Source of the DNA: Thiobacillus denitrificans DSM 12475 | GTDB taxonomy: Bacteria > Pseudomonadota > Gammaproteobacteria > Burkholderiales > Thiobacillaceae | Assembly: GCF_000376425.1 (NCBI RefSeq) | Contig: NZ_AQWL01000005.1 | Span: 326,007-390,006, forward strand | DNA length: 64,000 nt | Direction of reading: 5' to 3' | Shown here: positions 31,570 through 48,290 of the stretch, in pieces | How positions within the stretch are numbered: position 1 is the stretch's first letter | How the letters are laid out: the number at the start of each line of letters is the position of its first letter | Notes under the pieces: model-generated | What the model saw: only the letters and a program-made list of their open reading frames with translations | What the model was told of the DNA's origin: nothing | Database searches by the model: none | Made by a program: the position numbers and the translations under genes

Positions 31570-32940
31570 TTAGGCGGCAGCGCGCGCCTTGTGCGCGCGC
31601 ACCTGGTTCAAAAACGGGGCGATCCAGCCCTGTGCGCCGCTGCCCCGGCGATGTACATAGGCGGCCAGCAGATTGTGCTGCTGATAGCCGTCATGCTTGC
31701 CATCGATGCCGTGACCGCGCTGCACCCGGTAGGCGTATATGGAGTCGGCGGGCAGATTTTCCAGGCTCGAATAATGAAACTCGTGCGCCGGGACAGGCGC
31801 CGTCTCCTGCCAGCGATCCTCGCCGGTTGGCTGCAGGCGCGCATAGCCGCGTCCGACCGGGCGTTCGTGCATCACGGTATTGCCCGGCACCACGCCGACC
31901 ATCTCACACGTCCGCCCCTGCCAGTCGAGGCTTTTTGACAGATACATCAGCCCGCCGCATTCCGCATAGGTCGGCAGTCCGCCTTCGATCGCGTTGCGGA
32001 TGCTGCTACGCAAGGCCGTATTGGCTTCGAGTTCCACCATGAACATTTCGGGGAAGCCGCCGCCGATGATGAGACCGTCGACGTCAGGCAGTGCCTGTGC
32101 ACGCAGGGTGTCGATGTCGACCAGTTCGACATTGGCGGCGCGCAGGCTGTCGATATCTTCGCTGTAATAGAAACCGAAAGCCTGATCGTGCGCAATGCCG
32201 ATGCGCACACGCTCGGCGGACGCTACCGTTTCGGCCGCCGGCGGAACACTCAGCTCGGGCGCGTTGGCGGAAATCGCCAGCAGCCGGTCAAGATCGACCT
32301 GCGCCGCCACGCGTTCGCCGACGTGTCGAATCCGTGCGCGTGCAGCGTCCTGTTCATTGGCCGGCACCAGCCCAAGATGGCGCTCGGCGATCTGCATGCT
32401 GGCGTCATGTTGTACCGCACCGATCACCTCGACCTCGGTGTAATGCTCGATCACCGCGCGCAGCTTGGATTCGTGGCGACTGCCGCCTAGGTTGTTGAGG
32501 ATGACACCGGCGATGCGGATATCACGATCGAAGGCCTGGTAGCCGAGGATCAGCGGTGCCACGCCGCGCGTCATGCCACGCGCGTCGATTACCAGCACCA
32601 CCGGCACGCCCAGCAGCTTGGCCAATGCCGCATTGCTGTTGCTGCCATCAAGGTCGAGACCGTCGTACAGGCCCTTGTTGCCTTCGATCAGGCTGATGCG
32701 CGCGCTGGCGGCGGCACGGGCGAATTGCTGCTCGATCTCATCACGCCGCATCATGTGAAAATCGAGGTTGTAGCAGGGGCGCTGCGCCGCCATTCCCAAC
32801 CACAGCGGATCGATGTAATCAGGGCCTTTCTTGAAAGGCTGCACCGCGTAACCACGCGCGTGCAATGCAGCGCACAGCCCCAGCGTGAGCGTGGTTTTTC
32901 CCGACGATTTATGCGCGGCAGAAATGAAGACGCGGGGCAT
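31570..32940 (-). CDS. dsrN: DsrN, siro(haem)amide synthase (CbiA-like)
   Basis: Glutamine-dependent amidotransferase of the cobyrinate a,c-diamide synthase family that amidates siroheme for DsrAB. 456 residues: N-terminal P-loop VFISAAHKSSGKTTLTLGL and C-terminal class I glutaminase region (GGGFPEMFMVEL, catalytic Cys in YAECGGLMYLS, and a late His in HEFHYSS). The start MPRVF is preferred. An in-frame ATG four codons earlier (32952, MKDRMP) lies inside a palindromic repeat, which also supplies the weak ribosome site GAAAG. Most of the leader is thus repeat-derived. Confidence 0.94.
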   Translation of the reverse strand: MPRVFISAAHKSSGKTTLTLGLCAALHARGYAVQPFKKGPDYIDPLWLGMAAQRPCYNLDFHMMRRDEIEQQFARAAASARISLIEGNKGLYDGLDLDGSNSNAALAKLLGVPVVLVIDARGMTRGVAPLILGYQAFDRDIRIAGVILNNLGGSRHESKLRAVIEHYTEVEVIGAVQHDASMQIAERHLGLVPANEQDAARARIRHVGERVAAQVDLDRLLAISANAPELSVPPAAETVASAERVRIGIAHDQAFGFYYSEDIDSLRAANVELVDIDTLRAQALPDVDGLIIGGGFPEMFMVELEANTALRSSIRNAIEGGLPTYAECGGLMYLSKSLDWQGRTCEMVGVVPGNTVMHERPVGRGYARLQPTGEDRWQETAPVPAHEFHYSSLENLPADSIYAYRVQRGHGIDGKHDGYQQHNLLAAYVHRRGSGAQGWIAPFLNQVRAHKARAAA

Positions 32941-33105
32941 ACGATCTTTCATGGGGTTTTAACCCCATAGAAAGTCGGAGTCCTATTGTAAGGCATACGT
33001 TCTTTCATGAGGCGTCAGCCTCACAGAAAGTCGGAGCCCTCACGCAGGGCATACGCGCTTTCATGAGGCTTCAGATCTCATGAAAAGCCGGAGTCCTCTT
33101 GTAGG
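32937..33105 (-). repeat. Three tandem 56-bp palindromic repeats between dsrP and dsrN
   Basis: Copies begin (plus-strand GCAT) at 32937, 32993 and 33049, period 56-56, with the next GCAT at 33106. Each has a variable palindrome (ATGGGGTTTTAACCCCAT; CATGAGGCGTCAGCCTCAC; CATGAGGCTTCAGATCTCATG) flanked by constant ACGNNCTTT and AGAAAGTCGGAGTCC. The stems differ between copies but keep pairing, which points to conserved structure. A fourth copy is in nifJ. Confidence 0.9.
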
Positions 33106-33201
33106 GCATCGCAGCCCCGCGCCTGGAGGAATCGTTTGAAGTGGCTTGCCGGTTCATGCCTGACGATCCCCCGCCAGGCTTGCGCCTGACAGGCTATCCG
33201 A

Positions 33202-41628: not shown

Positions 41629-41669
41629 GGCTCGTTCAAACTCCGAAAAATCCAGTCAGTTATCATCGA

Positions 41670-41716
41670 CGCCGCCGCAATCAAGCTGCGGCGGCGCTGG
41701 TGGCCTCAAAAAGGCC
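41670..41716 (-). repeat. Two hairpins between dsrB and dsrE
   Basis: A perfect 10-base GC stem CGCCGCCGCA (41670-41679) with TGCGGCGGCG (41687-41696), loop 7, and beside it GGCC (41702-41705) with GGCC (41713-41716) at the dsrB stop. Strong secondary structure without a T tract, suited to mRNA processing or stabilisation. Confidence 0.65.
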
Positions 41717-42786: not shown

Positions 42787-42851
42787 GTTTTATCTCCAGC
42801 TGATTTAATGCGCGGACCCCAGTTCCCACCGGAGCCCGCGGGTAACGAAAC

Positions 42852-44156
42852 TCAAGCGGCCGACGACTGCTTGTACTCGTTCCACTTCTCGACCTGCTCG
42901 TCCCAGTCGTCGGAACGGAAGTAAGGATTGGAACGCGGTGCACTGATCATGTTGGGATCGACCGGAATATCCATCCCCTCGAGGAAGTTGGCCATCCCGA
43001 TACGCTCGATCATTTCACCGGTGCGCTCATGCTCGAGGGCATTTTCGGCGAAGAAGTCGATCGTGTTGCGCGCAAGCTCATTCAGCTTTTCAAAATCCTC
43101 GTCGGACTCGAGCTTCATGAACGGAACCACCACAGTACCCATCGTGGCGCCGATTTTCAGCACGCTCTTGCCGCCAATCAGGATAGTGACACCCTTGTCC
43201 ACACCGGTCCGCAGGCCGCCGGGGATGACGTTCAGGCAGTGCATGCAGCGGACGCAGTTCTTGTTGTCGATGCACAGGGTGTTGCCATCGCCCAGATTGG
43301 CAGCGGAAACGTGCTCGCTGGCCTGGAACTTGTCGCTGGACACCAGGGTAATGGCCTTGGTCGGGCACTTGCTGATCACATCGTTGACCAGGTCGTTCAT
43401 GCCATGCGCCTTGTAGTAGTCCCGAACCTGCTCCTCATTGACACGAATGTTGTCGCGCCAGGTGCCAATAGTCGCGAAGTCGGAACGCTGAATGGCGTTG
43501 ACGCAGTCGTTTCCACAACCAGAGAACTTGAACTTGAACTTGTAGGGCAAGGACGGGCGGTGCATGTCATCGATGTTGTTGTTGATGACCGTGCGCAATG
43601 CCTTGGCTTCATCGAAACAGGAATGCTCGCAGCGGGCCGCACCAACGCAGGACATCGAGGTACGCAGCGCAGGGCCTGCGCCGCCGAGGTCGAAACCCAT
43701 TTCGTTAAACGCGTCGAACGCCCGCTGGACGTCCTCCGTTTTACAGCCCTGAAGCATGAGATCGCCGGACTGGCCATGGAACGCGAGCAGGCCCGAACCA
43801 CCATTGTCGGACCAGGCGTCACAGATCTTGCGCAGCAGGTCGGACGTGTAATGCATGCCGGCGGGCGGCTGGATACGCAAGGTATGAAATTCGGCCGCCT
43901 CGGGGAACAGCGGCTGATGGTTTTCGTCCTTCAATTCGGTAAAGCGCGGGATGATGCCACCCCCATAACCGAACACGCCGACCGTACCACCCTTCCAGTA
44001 GCCTTTTCTGTGCTCATAGGACGTTTCCAGCTGACCCATCAGGTCAACCATCATGTCGTTATCCTTGGCCAGCCGCTTCAGGCCGGTCACGAAGCTGGGC
44101 CACGGGCCTTTCTCAAGCTCGTCCAGATTGGGCGTATCAATCATCTTCTTTGCCAT
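42852..44156 (-). CDS. dsrA: DsrA, reverse dissimilatory sulfite reductase alpha subunit
   Basis: 434 residues from ATG 44156 (MAKKMIDTPNLDELEKG), chosen over a longer open frame because AGGAGAGAAAACT lies directly upstream and the family starts here. Siroheme-cluster cysteines are Cys170, Cys176, Cys214 and Cys218 (C-x5-C-x37-C-x3-C). The ferredoxin insert has CIDNKNCVRCMHC. First gene of a 15-gene operon; no dsrD is present, as in oxidative systems. Confidence 0.97.
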   Translation of the reverse strand: MAKKMIDTPNLDELEKGPWPSFVTGLKRLAKDNDMMVDLMGQLETSYEHRKGYWKGGTVGVFGYGGGIIPRFTELKDENHQPLFPEAAEFHTLRIQPPAGMHYTSDLLRKICDAWSDNGGSGLLAFHGQSGDLMLQGCKTEDVQRAFDAFNEMGFDLGGAGPALRTSMSCVGAARCEHSCFDEAKALRTVINNNIDDMHRPSLPYKFKFKFSGCGNDCVNAIQRSDFATIGTWRDNIRVNEEQVRDYYKAHGMNDLVNDVISKCPTKAITLVSSDKFQASEHVSAANLGDGNTLCIDNKNCVRCMHCLNVIPGGLRTGVDKGVTILIGGKSVLKIGATMGTVVVPFMKLESDEDFEKLNELARNTIDFFAENALEHERTGEMIERIGMANFLEGMDIPVDPNMISAPRSNPYFRSDDWDEQVEKWNEYKQSSAA

Positions 44157-44207
44157 AGTTTTCTCTCCTAGAACATTTCGAAATGCCCGCTCAGCAGACA
44201 GCTCAAC

Positions 44208-44216
44208 GGTATAGCA
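44208..44216 (-). promoter_or_regulatory. Candidate extended -10 promoter of the dsr operon
   Basis: Minus-strand TGCTATACC fits TGnTATAAT with two mismatches and would start RNA near 44200, leaving a 43-base leader with the dsrA ribosome site. Only a poor -35 (TGTTCA, 16 bases upstream) is present, as in activator-dependent promoters. The inverted repeat would then be at about -59 to -122. Confidence 0.35.
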
Positions 44217-44258
44217 ACATGATATTGACTGAACATCCGCACCACCATCATCCTCATG

Positions 44259-44322
44259 GGGACATCCATCTACTCCATATGGGTAGGTATAAGCCTGCCC
44301 GCATGGCGTAGATGGATGTCCC
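44259..44322. repeat. 64-base inverted repeat in the dsr divergent region
   Basis: Outer arms are perfect over 15 bases: GGGACATCCATCTAC (44259-44273) and GTAGATGGATGTCCC (44308-44322). After one mismatch an inner stem of 13 positions (44275-44287 with 44294-44306) continues, with ten Watson-Crick pairs, two that are G-U only in plus-strand RNA, and one mismatch; loop TATAAG. Could be a DNA operator or a structured RNA. Confidence 0.9.
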
Positions 44323-44568
44323 AACTCGGTAATAGCCCCTTGCCGCGAAGCATGAGACATTTGGTGCCCGTTACAGGAGTGAGTGAGCGTATTAAAATAT
44401 GGTTAAAAACGCAAGTCCATACGCGGCCCAGGGTTGAAACGCCCAGCGGCACCCTTAATTAACAGGAGTGCAAAAGCTGATGTGGCTGATGGCAAGGGCG
44501 ACTTGCATTGCACCCCGGCAACACCACGCTGCCAATCGACCAACTGAAGCACCACGGATTGAGATGTC

Positions 44569-44790
44569 ATGCCAGAGATTACGTTTCTAGAAAAAATGCG
44601 GCTGCCGTTCGGCGGCCAGGAAGTCGAGTTTCATCATCTTGTGCACGAGTCGGGCGGCGTGCCGTTTCTGCGCATCCGCATCCGCGAAAACAAGCGTTTC
44701 ACGATTTTCGACGTCGACCCGGTCAACGCGCAGAAATGGGGCGACCTGATGCAGGCATGGGCCAGCGAGCATGGCGGGGACGCGCCATGA
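44569..44790 (+). CDS. Small protein of unknown function (73 residues)
   Basis: Begins MPEITFLEKMRLPFGGQEVE and is a soluble mixed alpha/beta protein with a basic centre (LRIRIRENKRFTIFDVDP), no cysteine and no membrane segment. Its stop overlaps the start of the Cas6-like gene (ATGA), so the two are translationally coupled. Codon usage matches the neighbours. Family not recognised. Confidence 0.75.
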   Translation: MPEITFLEKMRLPFGGQEVEFHHLVHESGGVPFLRIRIRENKRFTIFDVDPVNAQKWGDLMQAWASEHGGDAP

Positions 44791-45443
44791 GCTGGAGTTG
44801 GCCTGAAACCAAGCCGGAAGAATATGTGCCCCGCATGATCGACCTGCAGTTCGATCTGGTGGGGACGGTCATTCCGGCCGAGACTGCCCAGCTGCTCGCA
44901 GACGCGCTGCAACGGCTGCTGCCGTGGCTGGGCGAGGAAACCGGTGCCGGCATCCACCATCTGAAAGGCGCAGAAACCAACAGCGGGGACGCCACGCTCT
45001 GCATCAACCGGCGCGCCAAGCTGTTCATCCGCGTACCCAAGACACGGGTGGACGACATGCAACGACTGATCGGGCAAACGCTCGATCTAGCGGGCCACAC
45101 GCTGCAGATCGGCCGTTTCAAGCCCCGCGAATTCAGTCCGTTCTCACACCTCTACTCGCACTTTGTTGACACTGGCAGCGCCGGTGAAGAACAATTCGTG
45201 CAGGACGTGATGCATGAACTGGACAGTCATTTCCAGCTGCGTTGCGGCTTCATCTGCGGCAAGGCACAAACCCTGCAAAGCGCATCCGGTCCCTTGCATG
45301 GCTTCAGCCTGATGCTGCACGAGGTGCCGCCCCACAAGTCCCTGCAACTGCAGGACGAAGGGCTGGGCCGCAACCATTTGTTAGGCTGCGGAATATTCAT
45401 TCCGCATAAATCCATTGCGCCGGTCGCACCGGCGACCCTTTAA
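44787..45443 (+). CDS. Stand-alone Cas6/Cmx6-like protein
   Basis: 218 residues resembling the Cas6/Cmx6 (subtype MYXAN) RNA endonuclease family throughout: IDLQFDLVGTVIPAETAQLL, then LLPWLGEETGAGIHHLKGAE, RRAKLFIRVPK, LAGHTLQIGRFKPREF, LQDEGLGRNHLLGCG and the closing glycine-rich end GCGIFIPHKS. Family members bind and cut hairpins of CRISPR repeat RNA. No other cas gene and no repeat array is present. A conserved histidine in GIHHLKG is a candidate catalytic residue, not proven. Located between a 73-residue protein and an RspA-type DsrC homologue, divergent from dsrA. Confidence 0.78.
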   Translation: MSWSWPETKPEEYVPRMIDLQFDLVGTVIPAETAQLLADALQRLLPWLGEETGAGIHHLKGAETNSGDATLCINRRAKLFIRVPKTRVDDMQRLIGQTLDLAGHTLQIGRFKPREFSPFSHLYSHFVDTGSAGEEQFVQDVMHELDSHFQLRCGFICGKAQTLQSASGPLHGFSLMLHEVPPHKSLQLQDEGLGRNHLLGCGIFIPHKSIAPVAPATL

Positions 45444-45498: not shown

Positions 45499-45831
45499 AT
45501 GTCTTATGTTGTAAACGGCGAAGAGCTCGAAACCGGCGACGAGGACTTCCTGCTGGAAGCCAACTTCAGCGACGATGTTCCCCCGGTCATCGCCGCGGCT
45601 GAAAAAATCACGCTGACCGACGAGCACTGGACGGTTATCAACTACCTGCGCGACAAGTACAAGGAAGACGGTCAAACACCGAACTTCCGCAACATGCTGG
45701 CGGAAATAGAAGATATGCACCCGGGCACCGACTGGAAGAAAAAGCTGTATGAGCTATTCCCCAACATGCCGGCTCGCCAGGGTGCGCGCGTTGCCGGCCT
45801 GCCCAAGCCCTTCGGCAAAGGCGGCTACTGA
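45499..45831 (+). CDS. RspA-type DsrC/TusE homologue lacking both C-terminal cysteines
   Basis: 110 residues with the DsrC fold (MSYVVNGEELETGDEDFLLE, LTDEHWTVINYLRDKYKEDG). The C-terminal arm reads RQGARVAGLPKPFGKGGY, so neither CysB nor CysA is present. In the published scheme (DsrC two cysteines, TusE one, RspA none) this is RspA, thought to be regulatory. AAAGGAG precedes the start. Adjacent to the dsr control region and downstream of the Cas6-like gene. Confidence 0.88.
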   Translation: MSYVVNGEELETGDEDFLLEANFSDDVPPVIAAAEKITLTDEHWTVINYLRDKYKEDGQTPNFRNMLAEIEDMHPGTDWKKKLYELFPNMPARQGARVAGLPKPFGKGGY

Positions 45832-45913: not shown

Positions 45914-46762
45914 ATGTTTTCCAACACCCTCGTTACCACTGAAGACCTGGCCGCGCATCTGGACGACCCCAACTGGGTCATTCTGGACTGCCGCTTCACC
46001 CTCACCGACACGGGGGCAGGCCGTCAGGCGTACGAGAAAGCACATATCCCGGGTGCACGTTACGTGCATCTGGACGAAGACCTCTCCGCTCCCGTCGGCG
46101 AAACCACGGGACGGCATCCGCTGCCCGATCCGCACGTGCTGACCGAAAAGCTCTGTCAATGGGGCGTCGGGGTCAACAAGCAGGTCGTAGTGTACGACGA
46201 CAGCTATGGCGCCATGGCGGTGCGGCTGTGGTGGATGATGCGCTGGCTCGGCCACCCTGGCGTGGCGCTGCTGGACGGCGGCTACCCGAAGTGGACGCGC
46301 GAAAAACGCCCGGTCGATGGCGACATCCCGGCACCGCACAAAGGCGCCTGCGCCTGCCTGCCCGAGCCCAGCCAGATCGTAACGGCGGACGAGGTTCTGC
46401 ACGCATCCCGGAGCGGCGAACAGCTCATACTCGACGCGCGTCCGGATCGCCGCTTCAGTGGCGAGTTCGAACCGCTCGACCCGGTGGCCGGACACGTGCC
46501 GGGCGCGATCAACTACCCGTTCGACGAGAATCTCGATGTGGACGGCACCTTCCTGCCGCCCGAAGCGCTGCGCGAGAACTACCAGGCCCTGCTCAAGGGC
46601 AAGCCGGCCTGGCAGGTCATCCACATGTGCGGCTCCGGCGTCACCGCCTGCCACAACGTGCTGGCGATGGAAATCGCCGGTCTCCCCGGTTCACGGCTTT
46701 ACCCCGGCTCGTGGAGCGAGTGGATCACCGATCCCGCCCGCCCCGTGGCCACAGGAGAATAA
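45914..46762 (+). CDS. Thiosulfate/3-mercaptopyruvate sulfurtransferase (two-domain rhodanese)
   Basis: 282 residues with two rhodanese domains (first: LVTTEDLAAHLDDPNWVILD; second with the active loop HMCGSGVTACHNVLAME). The loop CGSGVTA is typical of 3-mercaptopyruvate sulfurtransferases. Inactive first domain, catalytic Cys in the second. No signal peptide, so cytoplasmic. Next to dsr it could load sulfane sulfur toward DsrEFH; this is inference. Confidence 0.92.
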   Translation: MFSNTLVTTEDLAAHLDDPNWVILDCRFTLTDTGAGRQAYEKAHIPGARYVHLDEDLSAPVGETTGRHPLPDPHVLTEKLCQWGVGVNKQVVVYDDSYGAMAVRLWWMMRWLGHPGVALLDGGYPKWTREKRPVDGDIPAPHKGACACLPEPSQIVTADEVLHASRSGEQLILDARPDRRFSGEFEPLDPVAGHVPGAINYPFDENLDVDGTFLPPEALRENYQALLKGKPAWQVIHMCGSGVTACHNVLAMEIAGLPGSRLYPGSWSEWITDPARPVATGE

Positions 46763-46764
46763 CC

Positions 46765-47385
46765 ATGGTCAAACCCGTACGAGTACGTACCGTCTGGTTC
46801 AAGCGGGACGGCGAGCGCAGCGCCGAGGAAATCGCCAGTTCGGTGGCCTCCACCATCTGGCGCGTCGCCGACAAGGCCGTAGACAACCTCGGCCGCGAGG
46901 ACTACGACATCATCACCCCGGCACGCGGCTTCAAGCTGATCGCCGAATGCCTCGCCTTCCTGGTGCATTACTGCGACCGTATGGCCTACGGGACGCTGAC
47001 GCCCGAGCGCCGCGCCGCCGTGTTGCAGGCGATCAGCACCCGGCTGGGCGAAGTGATGGAAGAGAACATCATCGAGGCGGTCGGCCCCGACCCCACGCGC
47101 AACTTCAAGGCCGAATTCGTCGATTTTCTGAACCGGCGTTTCGTCGACTACGCGGAATTCGAGTTCCCCGACGACGACAAGGCCAGCTTCCCGGCGCTGC
47201 GCTTCCTCGGCCTGCAGATCCGCGACGAGATGGGCGACAGCGACAAGACCTGGATCATGGACCAGATCATGGACATCGAAATGCCCGAGATGATGGGCAC
47301 GGTGCGCAAGAGCTTCAAGGGCCTGCTGTCCGACGCGCCGATCAAGCGCGGCTTCGGCTCGCCCGACATGCTGCCGCCGGAATAA
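46765..47385 (+). CDS. Conserved-looking protein of unknown function (206 residues)
   Basis: A soluble, acidic, mainly helical protein ([52 protein letters not shown]) with no cysteine pairs, membrane segment or known motif. It has one isolated Cys in AECLAF and one in HYCDRM. Good AGGAGAAT ribosome site 2 bases after the sulfurtransferase stop, so co-transcribed with it. Function not recognised. Confidence 0.8.
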
Positions 47386-47393
47386 GGCGCGGC

Positions 47394-48290
47394 ATGGCGG
47401 GTTCGCCTTTCGATCTGGCCAACGAGAGCGGTTACCGCGCCTGGCGCGATGCCAGGCTCGCGGCCTATCCGCGCAGCGTGGACGAACTGATCGTGCCGCT
47501 GGCCGACCCGCGGTGCCTGAGCACGGAAGAATCCGGCGCCCTAGAATCGCGCTGCGCGCGCGCCAACATGGCGATCTACAGCGCAGCGCATCTGCCTGCC
47601 GCCGACAAGTCGATCCCGCATCAACTGGCACGCCAGCTCGGCCTCGTTCGCCTGGAAGGCAACTACCTCGCCGACGAGGACGGACTGTCCAGCATCACAC
47701 CAGCCGGCGATACCGGCAGCGTGCGCGGCGACTTCATTCCCTACACCCACAAGCCGATCAACTGGCACACCGACGGCTACTACAACGCGCTCGACCGCCG
47801 CATCCTCGGCATGACCCTGCACTGCGCGCAGGATGCCGAAGCCGGCGGCGAGAACGCGCTGCTCGACCACGAAATCGCCTACCTCCAGCTGCGCGATACC
47901 AATCCCGATTACGTCGCCGCACTGATGCAGCCCGACGCGATGACGATCCCCGCACGCATGGACGAGAACAACGTCGCCCGCCCCGAGCAGAGCGGGCCGG
48001 TGTTCGCGGTCGACCCCGTGCAAGGCTTCCTTTACATGCGCTACACCGCACGCACCCGCTCGATCATCTGGAAAGGCGATGCTGTCACGCAAGCCGCCGT
48101 CAAAACCCTGACCGAGATCCTCACCGGCTCCGAATACATTCTCACCGCCCGCTTGCGCCCGGGCATGGGACTCATCTGCAACAACGTGCTGCACACCCGC
48201 AACGCATTCTCCGATTCTCCCCGACACCGCCGCCTGCTCTATCGCGGTCGCTATTACGACCGCCTGCGCTTTCCCACACGCCCGCAATAG
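47394..48290 (+). CDS. TauD/TfdA-like Fe(II)/2-oxoglutarate dioxygenase
   Basis: 298 residues of the TauD fold. Iron ligands are the HxD pair in [10 protein letters not shown] and the distal His in [10 protein letters not shown]; the arginine in [10 protein letters not shown] would bind 2-oxoglutarate. Members oxidise sulfonates, herbicides, carnitine precursors and others; the substrate is not predictable. Eight bases after the 206-residue protein, so likely the third gene of a sulfurtransferase operon. Confidence 0.87.

Follow-up and report, generated by a model that had tools for sequence, protein, structure and literature searches.

Considering that proteins of the Cas6 family normally cut CRISPR RNAs, the presence of one of them beside dsrA, with no CRISPR array in the surrounding 64 kb, raises the question of what it does there. 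The gene was found in Thiobacillus denitrificans DSM 12475, in a stretch of 64,000 nucleotides (contig NZ_AQWL01000005.1, positions 326,007 to 390,006), which is called the window here. The part of the window around cas6 contains the following features.

42852..44156, minus strand: dsrA, for the alpha subunit of dissimilatory sulfite reductase; oriented away from cas6
44157..44568: control region common to dsrA and the DUF6967-cas6 pair
44259..44322: long inverted repeat with 29-nt arms, 86% complementary; RNA hairpin or DNA operator
44569..44790, plus strand: DUF6967 protein, 73 aa, overlapping cas6 by ATGA
44787..45443, plus strand: cas6, a Cas6/Cmx6-family protein of the dsr-linked type, 218 aa, C-terminal GCGIFIPHKSI
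45499..45831, plus strand: DsrC paralogue without C-terminal cysteine, ending GLPKPFGKGGY
45914..46762, plus strand: rhodanese-domain protein, part of this gene string (neighbour cluster 11)
46765..47385, plus strand: 206-aa protein without a named family (neighbour cluster 7)
47388..48290, plus strand: TauD-family dioxygenase-like protein, start approximate

The Cas6 protein and its family

The protein matched two family profiles over its full length, TIGR02807 (209.6 bits against a cut-off of 98.85) and PF09559 (196.6 bits against 26.7), and its predicted structure had the Cas6 fold. Both results bear out the preliminary description, which had called it a full-length Cas6/Cmx6-type protein, coupled to a 73-residue protein, followed by a DsrC homologue and sharing a control region with dsrA; this arrangement was also confirmed. 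The full-length profile match, the glycine-rich end (GLGxxRxxGCGxF) and the predicted fold place the protein with the type I-MYXAN Cas6/Cmx6 proteins, but its neighbours are dsr genes, and no cas genes or array were seen around it. The Cas6 of type I-B CASTs (PDB 8fcj_B and 8fcu_B) is held in a Cascade complex, whereas the gene string of the window showed no such partners.

Among 155 unique relatives, G192, G194 and G202 of the C-terminal glycine-rich loop were invariant, as were R76 and R82; K208 was present in 153 and H207 in 143. The candidate catalytic residue His57, which lies after the first helix and which we equate with His46, the catalytic residue of Pyrococcus Cas6, is present in the window protein and was His in 98 and Gln in 47 of the 155. 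In the two CRISPR-linked Cmx6 proteins that were compared (from Gloeothece and Nostoc; loci L207 and L209), this position was occupied by Gln in L207 and Asn in L209. These two I-MYXAN members and an orphan from Gloeobacter (L208) lack the H207-K208 pair and thus the PHK(S) end of the window type, and the PHK signature may be a mark of the dsr-linked Cas6 proteins, as judged against these three outsiders only. The dN/dS of cas6 was 0.14-0.18 in four pairwise comparisons, and the gene is under purifying selection. The named records closest to it belong to Thiobacillus, with an identity of 88% at most. A single copy of this Cas6 is present in the window genome, which comprises 3.61 Mb in 38 contigs (completeness of 100 and contamination of 0.55).

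A viral or mobile origin was considered and rejected: no match to Cas6 occurred in 50,697 phage records, five stretches of IMG/VR matched a pattern but none was confirmed, and the only three matches in 72,556 plasmid records were cyanobacterial, two of them being full I-MYXAN loci. In a tree of 51 sequences, which was not relied on, the three cyanobacterial sequences were separated from the other 48 with a support of 66%. On the Gloeobacter morelensis plasmid (L208), no other cas gene was annotated within 9 kb of the Cas6/Cmx6 gene, whose neighbours are hypothetical, PAPS-reductase-like, cupin and methyltransferase genes.

Linkage of cas6 to dsrA and its relation to CRISPR partners

The distribution of the protein was investigated in 300 genomes of the same order and in 360 genomes of the class (GTDB Gammaproteobacteria, including the betaproteobacteria). 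Matches to TIGR02807 above the cut-off were found in 58 of the 300 same-order genomes, one copy each, and in none of 14 control genomes. Counted as matches above the TIGR02064 cut-off together with long fragments, after weaker matches, which presumably represent other sulfite reductases or dsrB, had been dropped, dsrA was found in 64 genomes, including all 58 with Cas6 (Fisher p 1e-55, with related genomes counted as independent). In every one of the 58, cas6 lay on a dsrA contig and was divergent from dsrA; the gap between the profile matches was below 1 kb in 54, and the other four gaps measured 1.3, 2.0, 2.1 and 5.0 kb. The class sample gave a similar result. TIGR02807 matched in 119 genomes (113 above the cut-off) and dsrA at E <= 1e-30 in 118; both occurred in 112, Cas6 only in 7 and dsrA only in 6 (p 4e-76, again treating related genomes as independent). 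When the window genome was excluded, the remaining 118 Cas6 genomes had the two genes on one contig (84), on different contigs (27) or had no dsrA (7). The divergent order was found in 82 of the 84, with gaps of 0.65-4.5 kb. In two genomes of 1.4-1.5 Mb, G401 and G607, cas6 and dsrA were 41 kb and 517 kb apart, respectively. The gene setting of these distant cas6 genes (loci L177 and L176) is common to both and differs from the usual one, and the DsrC-like gene is missing.

Exceptions occurred in both directions. Six of the 64 same-order dsrA genomes (G082, G121, G130, G143, G212 and G272) and 6 of 118 in the class had no Cas6, so the protein is not indispensable, although some of these are fragmented drafts: G121 consists of about 600 contigs, and one dsrA fragment of G143 stops at a contig end. 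All seven class genomes with Cas6 and without dsrA kept at least one usual neighbour beside cas6: five had the TauD-like gene upstream, the sixth had the 64-aa gene, and the seventh, like four of the others, had the DsrC-like gene. Because several of these loci are on short contigs, they are probably incomplete dsr loci. The distances among cas6 sequences were correlated with those among dsrA sequences (r 0.76, 68 loci; dsrA against dsrB, 0.90), which indicates shared descent at most, because no unrelated control gene was compared. Two dsrA matches above the cut-off were also seen in six other same-order genomes. The window genome itself has a second, lone dsrA (contig C3; L199:9778-11085), where the next called gene is on the opposite strand and gene calling over the 19-kb stretch gave no dsrB and no cas6.

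Could the protein instead serve a CRISPR system located elsewhere in the cell, by processing its crRNA in trans? Most type III systems apparently use a Cas6 supplied in trans, according to one paper (PMC12669027), which would speak for such a role. However, profile searches of the window genome found no match to Cas1, Cas2 or DevR/Cas7 and only six matches to cas3_core, all below the cut-off; the genome-wide search consisted of these four, and arrays were searched for within the window. Cas1 occurred in 115 of the 300 same-order genomes without association with Cas6 (19 of 58 with Cas6, 96 of 242 without; p 0.37), and 39 of the 58 Cas6 genomes lacked it. None of the Cas1 matches listed, which leave out G049 and part of G196, adjoined cas6; the nearest on a common contig was more than 0.6 Mb away (G019, G042). 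Moreover, no CRISPR setting around cas6 was noticed in the loci with neighbours called, most of the 119 class genomes being outside this gene-level reading. Together with the position of all 58 same-order cas6 genes by dsrA, these results strongly disfavour a role in trans, which we regard as extremely improbable. A complete Cmx-type CRISPR locus elsewhere in the genome would have spoken against the preliminary description; as judged by Cas1, Cas2 and DevR/Cas7, to which that check was limited, none was found. There is strong support for its main proposal, the recruitment of a lone Cas6 to a function with dsr, since the gene tracks dsrA and not Cas1, and the survey of dsr-bearing relatives that it had suggested found the divergent order to be general in both samples.

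Neighbouring proteins and candidate RNA targets

The gene strings around cas6 fall into two common forms. In betaproteobacterial lineages, the usual string is dsrBA (transcribed away), DUF6967, cas6, the DsrC-like gene, a rhodanese or TusA-like gene, the 206-aa gene and the TauD-like dioxygenase gene. Many other Gammaproteobacteria have dsrBA (away), TauD-like, 64-aa, sometimes 236-aa, cas6, DsrC-like and often 68-aa, with the TauD-like gene thus between dsrA and cas6. The most constant pair, present also in the window, is cas6 and the DsrC-like gene 0-900 bp downstream. The latter was directly downstream in 20 of 20 same-order neighbourhoods, 77 of 78 named loci (2 more were too short) and 16 of 20 class neighbourhoods, and downstream in 24 of 28 short class loci (1 too short), 5 of 5 extra order loci and 5 of 7 class loci without dsrA; these sets of loci overlap in part.

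The DsrC-like partner matches PF04358 over its full length (102.4 bits), as expected of the DsrC/TusE sulfur-carrier family. It differs from the sulfur carriers in that the C-terminal cysteine is replaced and the end is a conserved KGGY, the usual ending of the partner; no cysteine was found in the last 14 residues of any of the downstream DsrC-like proteins found. This end is reminiscent of the RspA branch of the DsrC/TusE superfamily, which is also cysteine-less.

DUF6967 was found in 54 same-order genomes, 50 of which have Cas6 (50 of the 58), and in these it is encoded just upstream on the same strand. Of the four dsr loci with DUF6967 but without cas6, three also lack the DsrC-like gene, and G130 keeps a divergent one. 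The model of DUF6967 (pLDDT 89.7) is a beta4-alpha fold of four strands and a helix. In a Foldseek search, PUR-alpha repeats made up 15 of the top 20 rows with a probability of 0.96-1.00, with a best E of 0.08; no row had E <0.001, and some unrelated rows had equal probability. PUR-alpha repeats bind nucleic acids. The likeness concerns the beta4-alpha fold only, as profile searches revealed no PUR sequence similarity, and the model therefore gives a hint that DUF6967 might be a PUR-like nucleic-acid binder. Profile-profile comparison gave no credible relation between DUF6967 and the 64-aa, 68-aa and 236-aa proteins of the other Gammaproteobacteria.

The following elements in the dsrA leader and between dsr genes were examined as candidate RNA targets of Cas6.

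44259..44322: inverted repeat of the dsrA leader (see above)
42787-42851: GC-rich hairpin gap, dsrA-dsrB
41629-41715: GC-rich hairpin gap, dsrB-dsrE; a further such gap lies between dsrC and dsrM
32935-33109: three tandem 56-nt hairpin units (CTTTC..GAAAG) in the dsrP-dsrN gap

The leader hairpin of the window is stable in a single-sequence fold (-56.4 kcal/mol, z -6.19), and its other matches in the genome are only its own reverse and stretches of 14-15 bases. The half-sites of the inverted repeat (TACTCC/GGGTAG and CCTACC/GGAGTAG) are conserved in relatives; in loci of the Thiobacillus type they precede dsrA by about 140 and 115 nt. In an alignment of 43 such loci, from which L067 was left out since its anchor motif differs, only 1 of 11 predicted pairs changed on both sides, and the two strands folded alike (mean z -3.67 and -4.00, p 0.11, n=43). 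Because of this strand symmetry and the near lack of covariation, the repeats may equally be DNA operators, bound by an unknown regulator of dsrA and untouched by Cas6. A half-site pair that looks similar by eye precedes the lone second dsrA of L199, with no cas6 beside it, and is in keeping with operators. On the other hand, the dsrA strand has a weak bias in its wobbles (19 G-U against 7 A-C), and the long extra arms in the window, L078 and L131 exceed what short operators need. We consider the chances of the operator reading, which is compatible with the other readings, to be evenly balanced. In other families, 38 loci were scanned, of which 36 had dsrA (L176 and L177 had none); their leaders contain varied short palindromes, some of the TACCC/GGGTA or ATCCC/GGGAT type, and no common leader element was established across these 36.

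The intercistronic hairpins keep their position across many relatives. The gaps dsrA-dsrB, dsrB-dsrE and dsrC-dsrM folded better than shuffled sequences, with median z of -2.1, -2.7 and -3.8 (92, 78 and 82 gaps of 40-600 nt, 30 shuffles each), and no shared sequence among their hairpins was evident by eye. In the four Cas6-less dsr loci, 3, 1 and 4 gaps were foldable and z < -2 was reached in 1, 1 and 2, which is no clear contrast. The three-unit array was rejected as a general Cas6 target. It folds well (z -6.07), and by eye its stems are kept through paired changes between the copies. Nevertheless, it was absent from all 14 dsrP-dsrN gaps (7-200 nt) read among 20 relatives, including that of G163 of the same genus; of the remaining relatives, three have no such gap by estimate and three have gaps above 1 kb. 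A search of the loci with the array-hairpin pattern matched the window only, where it picked out one array unit and a site within a coding ORF near 28.07 kb. Thus, no substrate RNA was found among the leader, the intercistronic hairpins and the array. The suggestion that dsr mRNA is handled by Cas6 did not gain from these comparisons, considering the strand-symmetric leader repeats with almost no covariation, the intercistronic hairpins without shared sequence and the Cas6-less loci without contrast; dsr mRNA as the target is a possibility that we hold with some doubt.

Probable role of Cas6 in the dsr locus

Considering that the pairing of cas6 with dsr is kept so faithfully in relatives, the protein probably has a job in sulfur metabolism, and a dsr-dedicated, non-CRISPR role in the locus of the reverse dissimilatory sulfite reductase (rDsr), which serves sulfur oxidation in these Gammaproteobacteria, seems to us nearly certain. 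Judging from the predicted fold, the invariant glycine-rich loop and the invariant arginines, Cas6 likely binds RNA. We infer that the protein is best explained by a part in RNA handling for the dsr genes, its link to sulfur metabolism being based on linkage and its coupling to the cysteine-less DsrC on synteny. Cas6 would bind, and may cut, structured RNA and in this way would adjust the expression of dsr genes. The DsrC-like protein, which has no C-terminal cysteine to carry sulfur, could be its partner and report sulfur status, and in betaproteobacteria DUF6967 could be a second nucleic-acid binder. As a whole, this explanation, a CRISPR-independent Cas6 of the rDsr locus that adjusts dsr expression via RNA together with a DsrC-like partner, falls only slightly short of an even chance. 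A more specific form, in which a long-domesticated Cas6 RNA endonuclease and a state-sensing cysteine-less DsrC (with a PUR-like DUF6967 in betaproteobacteria) would recognise hairpins of dsr transcripts and control their processing or stability, is offered tentatively, and we would sooner doubt it than accept it. In that form, a major sulfur-oxidation pathway would be controlled at the RNA level by a CRISPR-derived or CRISPR-ancestral protein.

There are two other scenarios in which Cas6 would be dedicated to something other than dsr transcripts. Its target may be some other RNA of the cell, either a tRNA or a small RNA, and the sulfur-dependent modification of tRNA would be one example of such a function. 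TusE and TusBCD are related to DsrC and DsrEFH, the Cas6 partner belongs to the TusE/DsrC family, and a TusA-like gene (cluster 19) occurs within the cas6 string in some neighbourhoods, all of which would fit such a function. But the DsrC-like proteins should not relay sulfur as TusE does, because they have no cysteine in the last 14 residues, and Cas6 follows dsrA rather than general housekeeping; we consider this scenario unlikely. Alternatively, the Cas6 fold could have been retained purely for contacts between proteins, serving the DsrC-like protein or the Dsr complex as an interface or scaffold, and would then play no part with RNA. The variability of the putative catalytic histidine and the failure to find a conserved RNA target are in line with a scaffold, as is the contact between Cas6 and TniQ in I-F3 and I-B2 CASTs described in PMC11406308. 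Against it stand the invariance of the glycine-rich loop and of the two arginines, and the possible nucleic-acid binding of DUF6967, and the scaffold is therefore rather improbable in our view.

No paper on a link between Cas6 and dsr was found in the literature searched, mostly without subscription journals. About one-third of the class genomes sampled (119 of 360) carry a protein whose family model is that of the type I-MYXAN CRISPR Cas6. As it goes with dsrA in 112 of the 119 and, in the order, not with Cas1, automated naming points to CRISPR although possibly none is present, and it conceals a conserved component of a sulfur pathway of global importance. If the role in RNA handling is true, Cas6 would function outside CRISPR in central energy metabolism, and dsr regulation would be open to direct test. 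The finding also bears on the origin of Cas6, which either started as an RNA-binding protein of the cell or came out of CRISPR by recruitment.
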